Positions 33,230-37,296 of a stretch of 64,000 nucleotides of DNA are shown piece after piece. The position numbers were made by a program, and so were the translations under genes. The DNA is from Rahnella aceris. Its GTDB lineage: Bacteria > Pseudomonadota > Gammaproteobacteria > Enterobacterales > Enterobacteriaceae. Where the stretch lies: NCBI RefSeq assembly GCF_011684115.1, contig NZ_JAADJV010000005.1, forward strand, positions 248,001 through 312,000. The letters are read 5' to 3'. The notes below the pieces were generated by a model that was not told the DNA's origin, did not search any database, and saw only the letters and a list, made by a program, of their open reading frames with translations. The first letter of the stretch is position 1, and each line of letters opens with the position of its first letter.

Positions 33230-34744
33230 CTATTTCTTCAGGTCTGGATTAACTAACGGGGCAATCACCGCTAAAAGATCAGTTGCCAGCATACCGCGCG
33301 TTCCCTGCCGGTGGGCAATTTCGTCTGCGGCAGCACCATGCACTACTGAGCCCGCGCAGGCCGCATCATAACTATTTAGTTTCTGAGCCAGCAGGCCGCC
33401 GATAATACCAGAAAGTACGTCGCCCATGCCGCCGGATGCCATACCGGCATTGCCGACATCCGCGACCGCCATCTCGCCACGCTCACTGGCAATCAGAGTG
33501 CCGGCACCTTTGAGCACCACCACGCCGCCATATCGCTCCGTGAGTTTCTTCGCTGAAAGTAAGCGGTCACTTTCAATTTCGTTCACGCTGCAACCTAGCA
33601 AACGTGCCGCTTCGCCCGGATGGGGCGTCAGCACACGATTTTGCCGTTTCCGCGGATTGATTGCCAGCAGGTTAAGCGCATCAGCGTCCCATAAGGCCGG
33701 TTTATCCCAATTTTCTGCGCGTTCTACCGCCTGTTTGCCCCATTCTTTCTGACCCAGACCGGGGCCGATAACTAACACATCCGCCCATTCAAGCCCTTCA
33801 TCGAGCGACTCTGCGGTGAGTTCTTCCACCATCAGCTCAGGTCTCGCGGTCAGTAACGGTCCGGTATTTTCTTTGTGAGTGAGTACTCGCACCAGTCCGG
33901 CCCCGCTTCGCAACGCGGCTTCCGAAGCCATGCGGATCGCCCCCGCAAAACCGGTATCGCCGCCCACTACCAGCAAACGCCCGTGTTCGCCCTTGTGAGA
34001 ACAAGGGCGACGCGGGTGCAGCCATGCGCCTAATTGTGACGCATCCAGCCGTTGTAAGGGAGCAAGATGCCCGCCCAGCCAGCTTTCCAGCCCCAGCGCA
34101 TCGCAGTGTAATTTGCCGGTGTAGTCGCGCGCCTGCCCGGTCAGTAAACCGGGTTTCAGGGCGATGAAACTGATCGTATGCGAGGCGTGAACCACCTTCC
34201 CCGCAGTCTGACCTGTTTGCGCATCAAGACCGGAAGGGATATCTAAAGAGATGACAGGCAAAGACGCCGAGTTAATGGCTTCAATCAGCCCGTCATAAGG
34301 TGCTCGCGGCGCGGAAGATAAACCGGTGCCAAGCAAACCATCGATAATCAGATCAGCGTCCTGCGGCCATGCAAAGTCCGCAGGGTTAACCGTGCCGCCG
34401 CTTTTCAGCCAATCCTGCCGCGCTGTTTCTGCCTCTTCTGGCAGCGGCTTGCTGCCTGCCACGGCCAGCAGCGTCACGCTTATGCCTGCAGTTTTCGCCA
34501 GACGCGCAACTTCAAAACCGTCGCCACCGTTATTACCGTGGCCACACAAAATCAGCCAGTGGCGGGTTTGCGGAAACTCACGCTGCGCCAGTAAAAAAGC
34601 GGCTTTTGCCGCACGTTGCATCAGTGTAAACAGAGAAATCCCCGTTTCCTGCGCCGCCTGGCGTTCAGCCTGTCGCAGCCAGTCAGCAGAAAACACAGAA
34701 TGTGGTAAACTCGCCTCGTTTCGTTTTTCACGTTGGTTCGTCAT
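33230..34744 (-). CDS. nnr: Bifunctional NAD(P)H-hydrate repair enzyme Nnr
   Basis: Nnr repairs hydrated NAD(P)H: the N-terminal half (about 15-215) epimerises the R form and the C-terminal half (about 225-500) dehydrates the S form with ADP. Visible motifs are CGHGNNGGDGFEVAR (near 68), LDIPSGLDA (near 162) and NAGMASGGMGDVLSG (near 433). The ATG at 34744 has a GAGGGAG ribosome site and overlaps the start codon of divergent queG. It heads the superoperon that continues through hflC. Confidence 0.95.
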   Translation of the reverse strand: MTNQREKRNEASLPHSVFSADWLRQAERQAAQETGISLFTLMQRAAKAAFLLAQREFPQTRHWLILCGHGNNGGDGFEVARLAKTAGISVTLLAVAGSKPLPEEAETARQDWLKSGGTVNPADFAWPQDADLIIDGLLGTGLSSAPRAPYDGLIEAINSASLPVISLDIPSGLDAQTGQTAGKVVHASHTISFIALKPGLLTGQARDYTGKLHCDALGLESWLGGHLAPLQRLDASQLGAWLHPRRPCSHKGEHGRLLVVGGDTGFAGAIRMASEAALRSGAGLVRVLTHKENTGPLLTARPELMVEELTAESLDEGLEWADVLVIGPGLGQKEWGKQAVERAENWDKPALWDADALNLLAINPRKRQNRVLTPHPGEAARLLGCSVNEIESDRLLSAKKLTERYGGVVVLKGAGTLIASERGEMAVADVGNAGMASGGMGDVLSGIIGGLLAQKLNSYDAACAGSVVHGAAADEIAHRQGTRGMLATDLLAVIAPLVNPDLKK

Positions 34745-35897
34745 GACACTCCCTCTCGATCTCGTTCAACTGGCTCAACATATCAAGCAATGGGGCCAAT
34801 CGCTAGGCTTCCAGCAGGTTGGCATCTGCGATACAGACTTATCTGCCGAAGAGCCTAAACTGCAAGACTGGCTTGATAAACAATATCATGGCGAGATGGA
34901 ATGGATGGCGCGCCACGGCATGTTACGCGCACGGCCGCATGAACTTCTGCCCGGCACATTGCGGGTGATCAGCGTGCGCATGAATTATTTACCCGCCAAA
35001 GCAGCCTTTGCCAAAATCCTGAATAATCCTCAACTCGGCTACGTCAGCCGCTATGCCCTTGGACGTGACTATCACAAAGTCTTGCGCCAGCGCCTGAAAA
35101 AACTTGGCGATATGATTCAGGCGCATTGTACTGAACACGCTGATCAGACCGTCACCTTTCGCCCTTTTGTCGATTCCGCCCCCGTGATGGAACGCCCGCT
35201 GGCGGCGAAAGCCGGTCTTGGCTGGGTTGGTAAACACTCACTCATTCTTAACCGTGAATCCGGTTCATGGTTCTTTCTCGGCGAACTACTGATTGATTTG
35301 CCCCTGCCTGTCGATCAGCCGCAGGAAGAGAAATGCGGAAAGTGCGTGGCCTGCATCACCACTTGCCCGACCGGTGCCATTGTTGCGCCTTATACCGTCG
35401 ATGCCCGCCGCTGTATTTCCTATCTAACCATTGAGCTGGAAGGCGCAATACCGGAAGAATTCCGCGCGCTGATGGGTAACCGTATCTACGGCTGCGATGA
35501 TTGCCAGCTGATTTGCCCCTGGAATCGCTATTCGCAACTGACGGATGAAGAAGATTTCAGCCCGCGCGCCGCGCTGCATGCACCAGAGCTGATTGAATTG
35601 TTTAGCTGGGCGGAAGAAAAATTTTTGCGTATCACGGAAGGTTCGCCGATCCGGCGTATCGGACATCTGCGCTGGCTGCGCAATATTGCAGTGGCGCTGG
35701 GCAATGCGCCCTATTCGGAAGACGTGCTTAATGCCTTACAGTCGCGGGAAGGGAAAAATGCGTTGCTGGATGAACATATCAGTTGGGCAATCGCACAGCA
35801 GACAGAAAGAAGGAATGAACATCGGATAGAAGTGCAAACTTCACAGCAAAAACGCCTGATCCGCGCAGTGGAAAAGGGTTTGCCAAGGGATGCATAA
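34743..35897 (+). CDS. queG: Epoxyqueuosine reductase QueG
   Basis: QueG performs the last step of queuosine synthesis, reducing epoxyqueuosine in tRNA with a cobalamin cofactor and two 4Fe-4S clusters. The 384-aa product has CGKCVACITTCPTGAI (near 199) and CDDCQLICPWN (near 251), plus the C-terminal HEAT-like repeat (RRIGHLRWLRNIAVALGNAP). The ATG at 34743 matches the E. coli N-terminus (MSEPLDL versus MTLPLDL) and shares two bases with the nnr ATG on the other strand. The ribosome site is weak. Confidence 0.95.
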   Translation: MTLPLDLVQLAQHIKQWGQSLGFQQVGICDTDLSAEEPKLQDWLDKQYHGEMEWMARHGMLRARPHELLPGTLRVISVRMNYLPAKAAFAKILNNPQLGYVSRYALGRDYHKVLRQRLKKLGDMIQAHCTEHADQTVTFRPFVDSAPVMERPLAAKAGLGWVGKHSLILNRESGSWFFLGELLIDLPLPVDQPQEEKCGKCVACITTCPTGAIVAPYTVDARRCISYLTIELEGAIPEEFRALMGNRIYGCDDCQLICPWNRYSQLTDEEDFSPRAALHAPELIELFSWAEEKFLRITEGSPIRRIGHLRWLRNIAVALGNAPYSEDVLNALQSREGKNALLDEHISWAIAQQTERRNEHRIEVQTSQQKRLIRAVEKGLPRDA

Positions 35898-35936
35898 CCA
35901 TTCCCCAAAGCAATGCATGAGAAAAGCGATATTTTC

Positions 35937-35945
35937 TGTGCATAA
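35937..35945 (-). promoter_or_regulatory. DnaA box A of the datA-like locus
   Basis: TGTGCATAA on the plus strand, that is TTATGCACA on the minus strand, an exact DnaA box. A weaker 7/9 match (GATGCATAA) lies at 35889-35897, at the queG stop. Confidence 0.8.
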
Positions 35946-36028
35946 AAATAAAAATGCTTTGCCAATCAAGTGCAAAAAAAAGAGCAAGTGATCGTCATAA
36001 CGTTTCTTTATAAATTTATATTGATTTA

Positions 36029-36041
36029 AATCAACAAGTTA
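36029..36041 (+). promoter_or_regulatory. IHF binding site of the datA-like locus
   Basis: AATCAACAAGTTA matches WATCAA-N4-TTR completely and lies in an AT-rich segment between DnaA boxes A and B. It overlaps TTGATTTAAATCAA (36021-36034), which also resembles an FNR box. Confidence 0.75.
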
Positions 36042-36097
36042 TATTTTGGCAATATGGCGAGCGCAAAAAACAGACAGTGTAAAAAAACAACTAAACC

Positions 36098-36106
36098 TGT
36101 GGATAA
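36098..36106 (-). promoter_or_regulatory. DnaA box B of the datA-like locus
   Basis: TGTGGATAA on the plus strand, that is TTATCCACA on the minus strand, the highest-affinity form of the DnaA box. It is 57 bp beyond the IHF site. Confidence 0.85.
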
Positions 36107-36150
36107 GTCTGTTTAAAACATTACTACAAATCGTGTAATGATCACGTCAT

Positions 36151-36159
36151 TTATGCACA
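36151..36159 (+). promoter_or_regulatory. DnaA box C of the datA-like locus
   Basis: TTATGCACA, an exact DnaA box in the opposite orientation to boxes A and B, 53 bp from the start of the tRNA-Gly gene on its right. Confidence 0.8.
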
Positions 36160-36211
36160 GAAAATGCAGGAAGAAAGCGTTAAGAAATGATTTTGAACTG
36201 AAGAAGAAAAC

Positions 36212-36287
<76 letters not shown>

Positions 36288-36348
36288 ATTGAGATGTCTG
36301 ACATCTGCTGTACTGGCATTTGCTATAAATGTACAGCCTTTGAAACTT

Positions 36349-36424
<76 letters not shown>

Positions 36425-36481
36425 GTCGCATGGCACTGCTTTTTACGGCTTAAATCTTTGAATCTACGTAACTTAAAAATT

Positions 36482-36557
<76 letters not shown>

Positions 36558-36598
36558 TCTGCGCACTCAACGAAATTCTTCATCGGTACGGGGTGCGC

Positions 36599-36626
36599 AT
36601 TATACGAGAAATCCTTTTAGCCGCAA
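36599..36626 (-). promoter_or_regulatory. Promoter of the tRNA-Gly operon
   Basis: On the minus strand TTGCGG (36626-36621), 16-bp spacer, TATAAT (36604-36599), followed by the GC-rich discriminator GCGCACCCC typical of stringently controlled stable-RNA promoters. It lies between orn and the tRNA genes. Confidence 0.82.
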
Positions 36627-36741
36627 GCCCCTGAAAGCAAAAAAATGAATTTTTCGTTCAAGTGTCGATTAAAACATCAAAGAGATGAATTAATCAGCGA
36701 AACACGGTGATTTCGTGCTCCGCAGCGCAATAAAAAAGATT

Positions 36742-37296
36742 TCAGTTATTCTGGAGATTAATAAAATGTTCGCGGTAGTAGGCTAATTCAGCGACGGATT
36801 CACGGATATCATCCAGGGCCTGATGGGTATTTTGCTTTTTAAAACCGGCCAGCACTTCCGGCTTCCAGCGACGCGCCAGTTCTTTCAGCGTGCTGACATC
36901 CAGGTAACGGTAATGGAAATACTCTTCCAGCTCCGGCATATACTTAAACAGGAAACGTCGGTCCTGCCCGACGCTGTTGCCGCAAATCGGCGATTTCCCC
37001 GCCGGAACCCACTCGCGCAGGAACTCGATAGTTTTTTGCTGGGCTGCATTGTCATCAAACGGGCTGGCTTTGACGCGATCCACCAGACCGCTGCCGGTGT
37101 GCGTACGCACATTCCAGTCATCCATCAGCGCCAGCTGAGCATCAGACTGATGCACCGCCATCACCGGCCCTTCGGCCAGAATGTTCAGATGCGCGTCCGT
37201 CACCAGCGTGGCAATCTCAATAATGCGGTCACGTTCAGGATCCAGACCGGTCATTTCCAGGTCGATCCAAATTAAGTTCGAGTCATTTGAAGCCAT
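36742..37296 (-). CDS. orn: Oligoribonuclease Orn
   Basis: Orn degrades the last short RNA fragments, mainly dinucleotides including pGpG, to mononucleotides and is usually essential. The 184-aa DEDDh exonuclease shows [20 protein letters not shown] (near residue 10), a central NWNV-type segment, and [10 protein letters not shown] (near 160). It is divergent from rsgA across 126 bp that include a 16-bp palindrome. Confidence 0.97.

Follow-up and report, generated by a model that had tools for sequence, protein, structure and literature searches.

A probable datA orthologue between queG and the tRNA-Gly genes of a Rahnella-like bacterium

Results

Organization of the queG–tRNA-Gly gap

The window analysed here is a stretch of 64,000 nucleotides from Rahnella aceris. 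It contains a gap of 314 bp (35898-36211) that reaches from the stop codon of queG to the nearest of three tRNA-Gly(GCC) genes. The flanking gene queG (34743..35897, + strand, ATG start at 34743), placed by the list of open reading frames and by QueG protein matches, encodes epoxyqueuosine reductase; its product shares 95% identity with the Rahnella bonaserana protein and 93% with the one from Rahnella sp. AA. The tRNA-Gly(GCC) genes, called by ARAGORN, are located at 36212..36287 (nearest), 36349..36424 (middle) and 36482..36557 (farthest), all on the - strand, and all three are read towards the gap. Apart from tRNAs, a search of Rfam with positions 35500-37000 returned nothing above threshold. 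A match to YrlA spanning two of the tRNAs (38.3 bits, gathering threshold 69) was below threshold and was taken as noise.

The gap holds three exact TTATNCACA DnaA boxes, at 35937 (-), 36098 (-) and 36151 (+). The first, TTATGCACA (35937..35945, - strand), lies 39 bp from the queG stop, is an exact match, aligns with TTATTCACA of E. coli and is designated the equivalent of box 3. A predicted IHF-binding site (IBS), AATCAACAAGTTA (36029..36041, + strand), matches the consensus WATCAANNNNTTR exactly and is separated from box 3 by 83 bp and from the second exact box, TTATCCACA (36098..36106, - strand; box 2 equivalent), by 56 bp. After a 3-bp spacer, box 2 is followed in the same direction by a putative low-affinity site, TTTTAAACA (36110..36118, - strand; box 7 equivalent), with one mismatch to TTWTNCACA. 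The third exact box, again TTATGCACA (36151..36159, + strand), begins 44 bp beyond box 2. The box numbers are those that we infer from the sequence. The initial annotation had reported three exact boxes together with a full IHF consensus, all of which we recovered at the same positions; the essential low-affinity box 7 was absent from its plan.

By count alone, three exact boxes per 64 kb are ordinary (24 of 100 shuffles), a figure near expectation that would suit a chance cluster in an AT-rich gap. Their grouping is another matter: in order-1 resamples, a triplet within 223 bp appeared in none of 300 whole windows, and none of 20000 resampled gaps contained three boxes. The genome carries 173 exact boxes in 5,233,450 bp, and 0.0043 triplets would be expected genome-wide if these were scattered at random. 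The box density in the gap is not due to chance, and the earlier assertion that the clustering lies far above it holds. Together with the family-wide conservation of boxes 2, 3 and 7 described below, the resampling refutes a chance origin for these three boxes, to which we assign a negligible probability; the third box at 36151 is excepted.

Correspondence with E. coli datA

In E. coli MG1655 the corresponding region is likewise flanked by queG and three tRNA-Gly(GCC) genes in an identical arrangement, which bears out the position beside three tRNA-Gly genes that the initial annotation had likened to E. coli. By our placement, E. coli datA, the DDAH locus that contributes to inactivating the replication initiator DnaA, occupies MG1655 4,392,732-4,392,914 (boxes 7 to 3) and reads, on the queG strand, TGTGAATAA, an IHF consensus and TGTGGATAA. 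Both loci share the order box 3–IBS–box 2–box 7, with boxes 3, 2 and 7 in one direction. Boxes 3 and 2 are spaced by 161 bp here and by 162 bp in E. coli, and in both loci 69 bp separate the start of the IHF site from box 2. Box 7 to box 3 covers 182 bp here compared with 183 bp in E. coli. The published minimal E. coli datA comprises 183 bp with boxes 2, 3 and 7 and the IBS (PMC5742627); lengths of 187 bp and 262 bp have also been published for differently drawn regions. The E. coli box 7, TTGTAAACA, lies three bases from box 2, and we infer its placement because it is the only same-direction site with two or fewer mismatches within 60 bp and because it reproduces the published 183-bp length.

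Some elements of the E. coli locus are not shared. The stimulatory box 4, which is not essential in vivo, is absent here, no box with zero or one mismatch being present on the queG side of box 3 within the gap, and box 1 is absent as well. Conversely, the inverted exact box at 36151 has no place in the E. coli plan. The E. coli-like plan of boxes and IHF site put forward by the initial annotation is thus retained for box 3, the IHF site and box 2, but not for the third, inverted box. E. coli DARS2 likewise combines DnaA boxes with IHF sites in controlling the nucleotide state of DnaA (PMC5742627). Compared by description, DARS2 differs: it reactivates DnaA, and its core combines Fis sites with boxes I-III in opposite orientations (PMC13036160, PMC5742627), whereas the conserved boxes 3, 2 and 7 here run in one direction. 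A Rahnella aquatilis DARS2 is already in print (PMC8682772).

The proteins that would act on the locus are encoded in the genome. DnaA and its E. coli counterpart are identical at 434 of 460 aligned positions and throughout domain IV (94/94), and R281, R285, L290 and R334 are all kept; IhfA and IhfB were both found above the cut-off. Four sister genomes were searched for the distance between datA and dnaA, start to start, which amounts to 438 kb (G300), 449 kb (G302) and 456 kb (G295), compared with about 510 kb in MG1655; in the fourth (G298) the two lie on different contigs, as they do in the genome of the window (datA on contig C5, dnaA on C4). In these three sister genomes datA is fairly close to oriC, with the distance taken to dnaA rather than to oriC itself.

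As a whole, positions 35937-36118 very probably constitute the datA locus of this Rahnella-like bacterium and would work as E. coli datA does. Orthology, boxes, spacing, conservation and the presence of DnaA and both IHF subunits are read from sequence, while binding, bending, hydrolysis and timing would carry over from the E. coli work.

Conservation within the genus and the third box

A match to the gap is present in all 14 genomes of the genus set; with L095, which is truncated where its contig ends, set aside, 13 loci remain, that of the window's own genome included. In 13/13, boxes 3 and 2 are exact at a distance of 161 bp and box 7 is kept; the IHF site is exact in nine and carries one mismatch in the other four. 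An exact third box is confined to two of the 13 loci, those of the window's own genome and its nearest relative (L083). The initial annotation had proposed a datA-like locus and had named beforehand, as an observation that would speak against it, the lack of box conservation in sister genomes. Boxes 2, 3 and 7 are conserved there and the third box is not; the proposal itself is upheld by the matching synteny, box orientation, spacing and IHF position in the MG1655 alignment and by the 13/13 occurrence of boxes 3, 2 and 7.

A repeat search placed box 3 and the third box in the arms of a 16-bp perfect inverted repeat, box 3 in the left arm (35931..35946) and the third box in the right arm (36150..36165). 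Genome-wide, exact copies of this 16-mer occur at these two places only, and one-mismatch copies occur twice. We read the third box as a recent, lineage-specific extra that would be no part of the conserved machine. Whether it stands in for the tRNA attenuator discussed below is speculation.

Conservation across the family and order

A pattern consisting of box 3, 140 to 166 arbitrary bases, box 2 and the start of box 7 is present in 180 of 295 family genomes, and its reversed control in none of the 295; the pattern was chosen after seeing the alignment and is therefore fitted to the family. Divided by size (counted by hand), genomes of 3.0 Mb or more have it in 176 of 192 cases and smaller ones in 4 of 103. 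When the full IHF consensus is included, the strict pattern matches 45/295 genomes, at least two of which (G057, G184) match away from datA, and it misses all three other same-genus genomes in the sample. The low count indicates that the IHF sequence is more variable than the boxes. Among the 16 large genomes without the pattern, seven match if box 3 is allowed one more change and the start of box 7 is dropped, which leaves 9 of 192 large genomes without even this relaxed signature. Three of these nine (G075, G196 and G270, of genus g75) have box 2 near a contig end and a decayed box 3, TGTGAGTGC, 159-160 bp away, so that a weakening of datA is possible in this genus.

A set of 33 loci, made up of the window, MG1655 and 31 named family loci, has boxes 3 and 2 spaced by 161 bp in 22 cases and by 159-164 bp in all. 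Their IHF sites contain no mismatch in 12 loci, one in 14, two in five and three in two; zero or one mismatch is therefore seen in 26/33, compared with 1.8% of shuffles. A wider collection of 82 family loci was reduced to 57 representatives of less than 85% identity, and in 53 of these a same-direction box 7 site with two or fewer mismatches is present at the offset seen in the window. In a sample of the order, the pattern occurs in 30 of 34 own-family genomes and in 3 of 360 others; the three matches from other families (G308, G314 and G338) show spacings of 161 and 165 bp.

These figures bear on an explanation in which the boxes act as a passive sink that titrates DnaA and do not promote hydrolysis. 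datA was indeed first described as a titration locus, and it also titrates DnaA directly (PMC5835720), but a sink would need neither a fixed IHF site nor a single orientation, neither a spacing held within 159-164 bp over 33 loci nor a weak box 7 conserved at a fixed 12-bp offset (53/57). We consider passive titration improbable and retain the interpretation as a working datA locus.

A conserved block between box 3 and the IHF site

From the 57 representatives, the 38 with the 161-bp spacing and enough flanking sequence were stacked without gaps. Since the stacked species are related, the resulting bits are not independent counts. Three conserved elements emerge between box 3 and the IHF site, all given on the + strand: element A, TTGCCAATCAA (35959..35969; TTG..TCAA), with a mean of 0.89 bit (0.86 when corrected for base composition); element B, CAAGTGATC (35985..35993; CAAGYGATC), which includes the sole GATC of the core, with 1.18 bit (1.24 corrected); and element C, TAACGTTT (35998..36005; TAACRTTT), with 1.33 bit (1.11 corrected). 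For orientation, the IHF site itself reaches 1.12 bit (0.86 corrected), the AT-rich tail of box 3 1.54 bit (0.97 corrected), the stretch just before the IHF site 0.74 bit, the queG-side flank 0.42 bit and the interval from the IHF site to box 2 0.31 bit (0.24 corrected). Box 2 is invariant in the stack, having been part of the selection pattern. Box 3 lies anywhere from 13 to 84 bp beyond the queG stop, yet the block stays in register with box 3, and this assigns the block to datA and not to queG.

GATC is enriched in this interval. It occurs between box 3 and the IBS in 41 of the 57 representatives against 10.3 expected, and exactly at offset 53 from box 3, where both the window and E. coli datA have it, in 32/57; between the IBS and box 2 it is found in 8/57 against 8.9 expected. 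The sequence CAAGNGATC is kept in 38/57 representatives and has been lost in several genera. Fork passage soon after initiation hemimethylates GATC, which would fit a timing element and is offered as a lead only. A single GATC is not known to be a typical target of SeqA. Review drawings, the datA panel included, mark GATC sites (PMC10380432).

Reading the block as further DnaA boxes found no support, the best mean mismatch inside it being 3.67 (offset 34, 57 representatives). Resemblances to other binding sites are weak. An IHF-like match at offset 12 (+), which overlaps both the AT tail and the first three bases, TTG, of element A, has two mismatches in 33/57 representatives and fewer in none, and another at offset 61 (-), in element C, has one mismatch in 11/57 and two in 13/57. 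Fis-like matches are located at offset 42 in element B (no mismatch in 2/57, one in 12, two in 16), at offset 20 in element A (one in seven of the 57, two in 25) and at offset 3 across box 3 and its AT tail (one or two in 49/57). The window itself shows two Fis mismatches at each of offsets 3, 20 and 42, and two and three IHF mismatches at offsets 12 and 61, respectively. Such a weak resemblance may hint at a Fis contact or a second IHF contact within the block. It left our assessment of a functional block unchanged, as a bound protein had already been allowed for.

Kasho et al. 2024 propose that an unknown factor times the release of IHF (PMC10950094). We tentatively suggest, while holding it to be rather unlikely, that the block 35959-36005 also has a function within datA, where its hemimethylated GATC or a bound protein would be the factor that times IHF binding.

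The tRNA side and the attenuator

Control of E. coli datA by read-through from the tRNA-Gly genes has already been published, as has the overlap of a DnaA box with the tRNA attenuator in that species (PMC10950094). Between the tRNA and box 2, E. coli and many of its relatives carry a hairpin accompanied by a run of T. In several relatives (e.g. L016, L019 and L023) the DnaA box at the position of box 1 contributes its TCCACA to the 5' arm of the hairpin, and one sequence could there serve both DnaA binding and attenuation; in E. coli the hairpin found overlaps this box by no more than its final two bases. With a cut-off of -6 kcal/mol or better, set by this analysis, the hairpin is present in 32 of the 66 loci (among 82) that have a tRNA-Gly close by, E. 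coli included.

No counterpart of the E. coli tRNA-side hairpin was found here: none of the 13 genus loci passes the cut-off (best -5.0 kcal/mol), and box 1 is also absent from them. The RNA of the tRNA–datA spacer in the window folds no more stably than its shuffles (z 0.74 and 0.79), compared with z -2.28 for the E. coli spacer, and a scan of positions 35850-36800 for promoters and terminators found none. If tRNA read-through controls IHF here as it does in E. coli, it would act without that attenuator.

The direction of the tRNA genes, which point at the locus, also raises an explanation in which the site is mainly transcriptional, with DnaA and IHF serving as roadblocks to transcription that runs on from the tRNA-Gly genes towards queG, and with replication affected secondarily if at all. 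Such read-through is indeed attenuated in E. coli by DnaA at box 2 and by IHF at the IBS (PMC10950094), and a protein block would be useful where no intrinsic terminator was found. A roadblock, however, does not need the fixed geometry of boxes and IBS, and E. coli datA mutants affect initiation (PMC5742627). We therefore judge a mainly transcriptional role highly improbable, less credible still than titration, and continue with datA as a site of DnaA inactivation.

datA-like clusters in Vibrionaceae

Of 80 queG loci collected, 31 belong to the family itself and 48 others were examined here; one more (L078), in which the sequence extends 26 bp downstream, was set aside. A box 2–box 7 signature follows queG in 20/20 loci of Vibrio, Photobacterium and Enterovibrio (L031-L033, L036-L042, L045, L046, L049, L053, L055, L057, L061, L072, L079, L080) and in 0/28 of the others. 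As in the window, queG lies upstream of the cluster; tRNA-Gly is encountered further on in 15/20, some with tRNA-Met nearer, and in the other five no tRNA was called on the short stretch covered. The partner box, TTTTCCACA (with one change in 1/20), is positioned at 262-281 bp, compared with 161 bp here. An IHF-like site with two or fewer mismatches lies 124-129 bp before box 2 in 20/20 loci (no mismatch in eight, one in six and two in six); shuffles give zero to two mismatches in 13%. Differing further from the window, these loci have an inverted box with at most one mismatch 18-19 bp before box 2 in 20/20, and an additional TTAAACACA-like box. GATC occurs 42 times in total between the partner box and box 2, against 14.2 expected, and between the partner box and the IHF-like site in 16/20 loci. 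Owing to their relatedness, counts over these 20 loci are not independent of one another.

By its arrangement, the Vibrionaceae cluster looks like a long-loop datA. Going by titles and abstract openings, we found no paper announcing it. Among the other queG loci, Oceanimonas smirnovii and Oceanisphaera pacifica (L047 and L076) have tRNA-Gly next after queG, and their queG–tRNA gaps (107 and 623 bp) contain no exact TTWTNCACA box; the queG–tRNA-Gly neighbourhood thus occurs without the boxes.

Discussion

Following the mechanism worked out in E. coli, IHF would bind the single site at 36029-36041 and bend the DNA sharply, and the bend would join ATP-DnaA on box 3 (35937) to ATP-DnaA on boxes 2 and 7 (36098 and 36110), with all three boxes pointing one way. 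The activities that characterize E. coli datA are a stimulation of DnaA-ATP hydrolysis that depends on IHF, IHF binding confined to the time after initiation, and untimely initiation upon deletion. The departure of IHF would require transcription entering from the tRNA-Gly genes, and the third box would stay outside the machine. One genome-wide IHF map in E. coli did not substantially detect datA (PMC8407004). Dependence on IHF may not be universal, as the IHF site carries two or three mismatches in 7/33 named loci.

Annotating the locus as a datA orthologue is in our view sound; what makes it interesting is the comparative map and the conserved block rather than the existence of the locus. 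Going by titles and abstract openings, we found no paper announcing datA outside E. coli, and prior publication is possible. The comparison extends datA from E. coli to most of the sampled free-living genomes of the family. Box 3, the IHF site, box 2, box 7 and the spacing are its constant parts, and boxes 1 and 4 and the tRNA attenuator its variable ones, a map that sets the core of the mechanism apart from details of the E. coli locus. In the Vibrionaceae loci, nature supplies a loop with a different spacing, and the conserved block provides a concrete place in which to seek the timing factor that has been proposed (PMC10950094).
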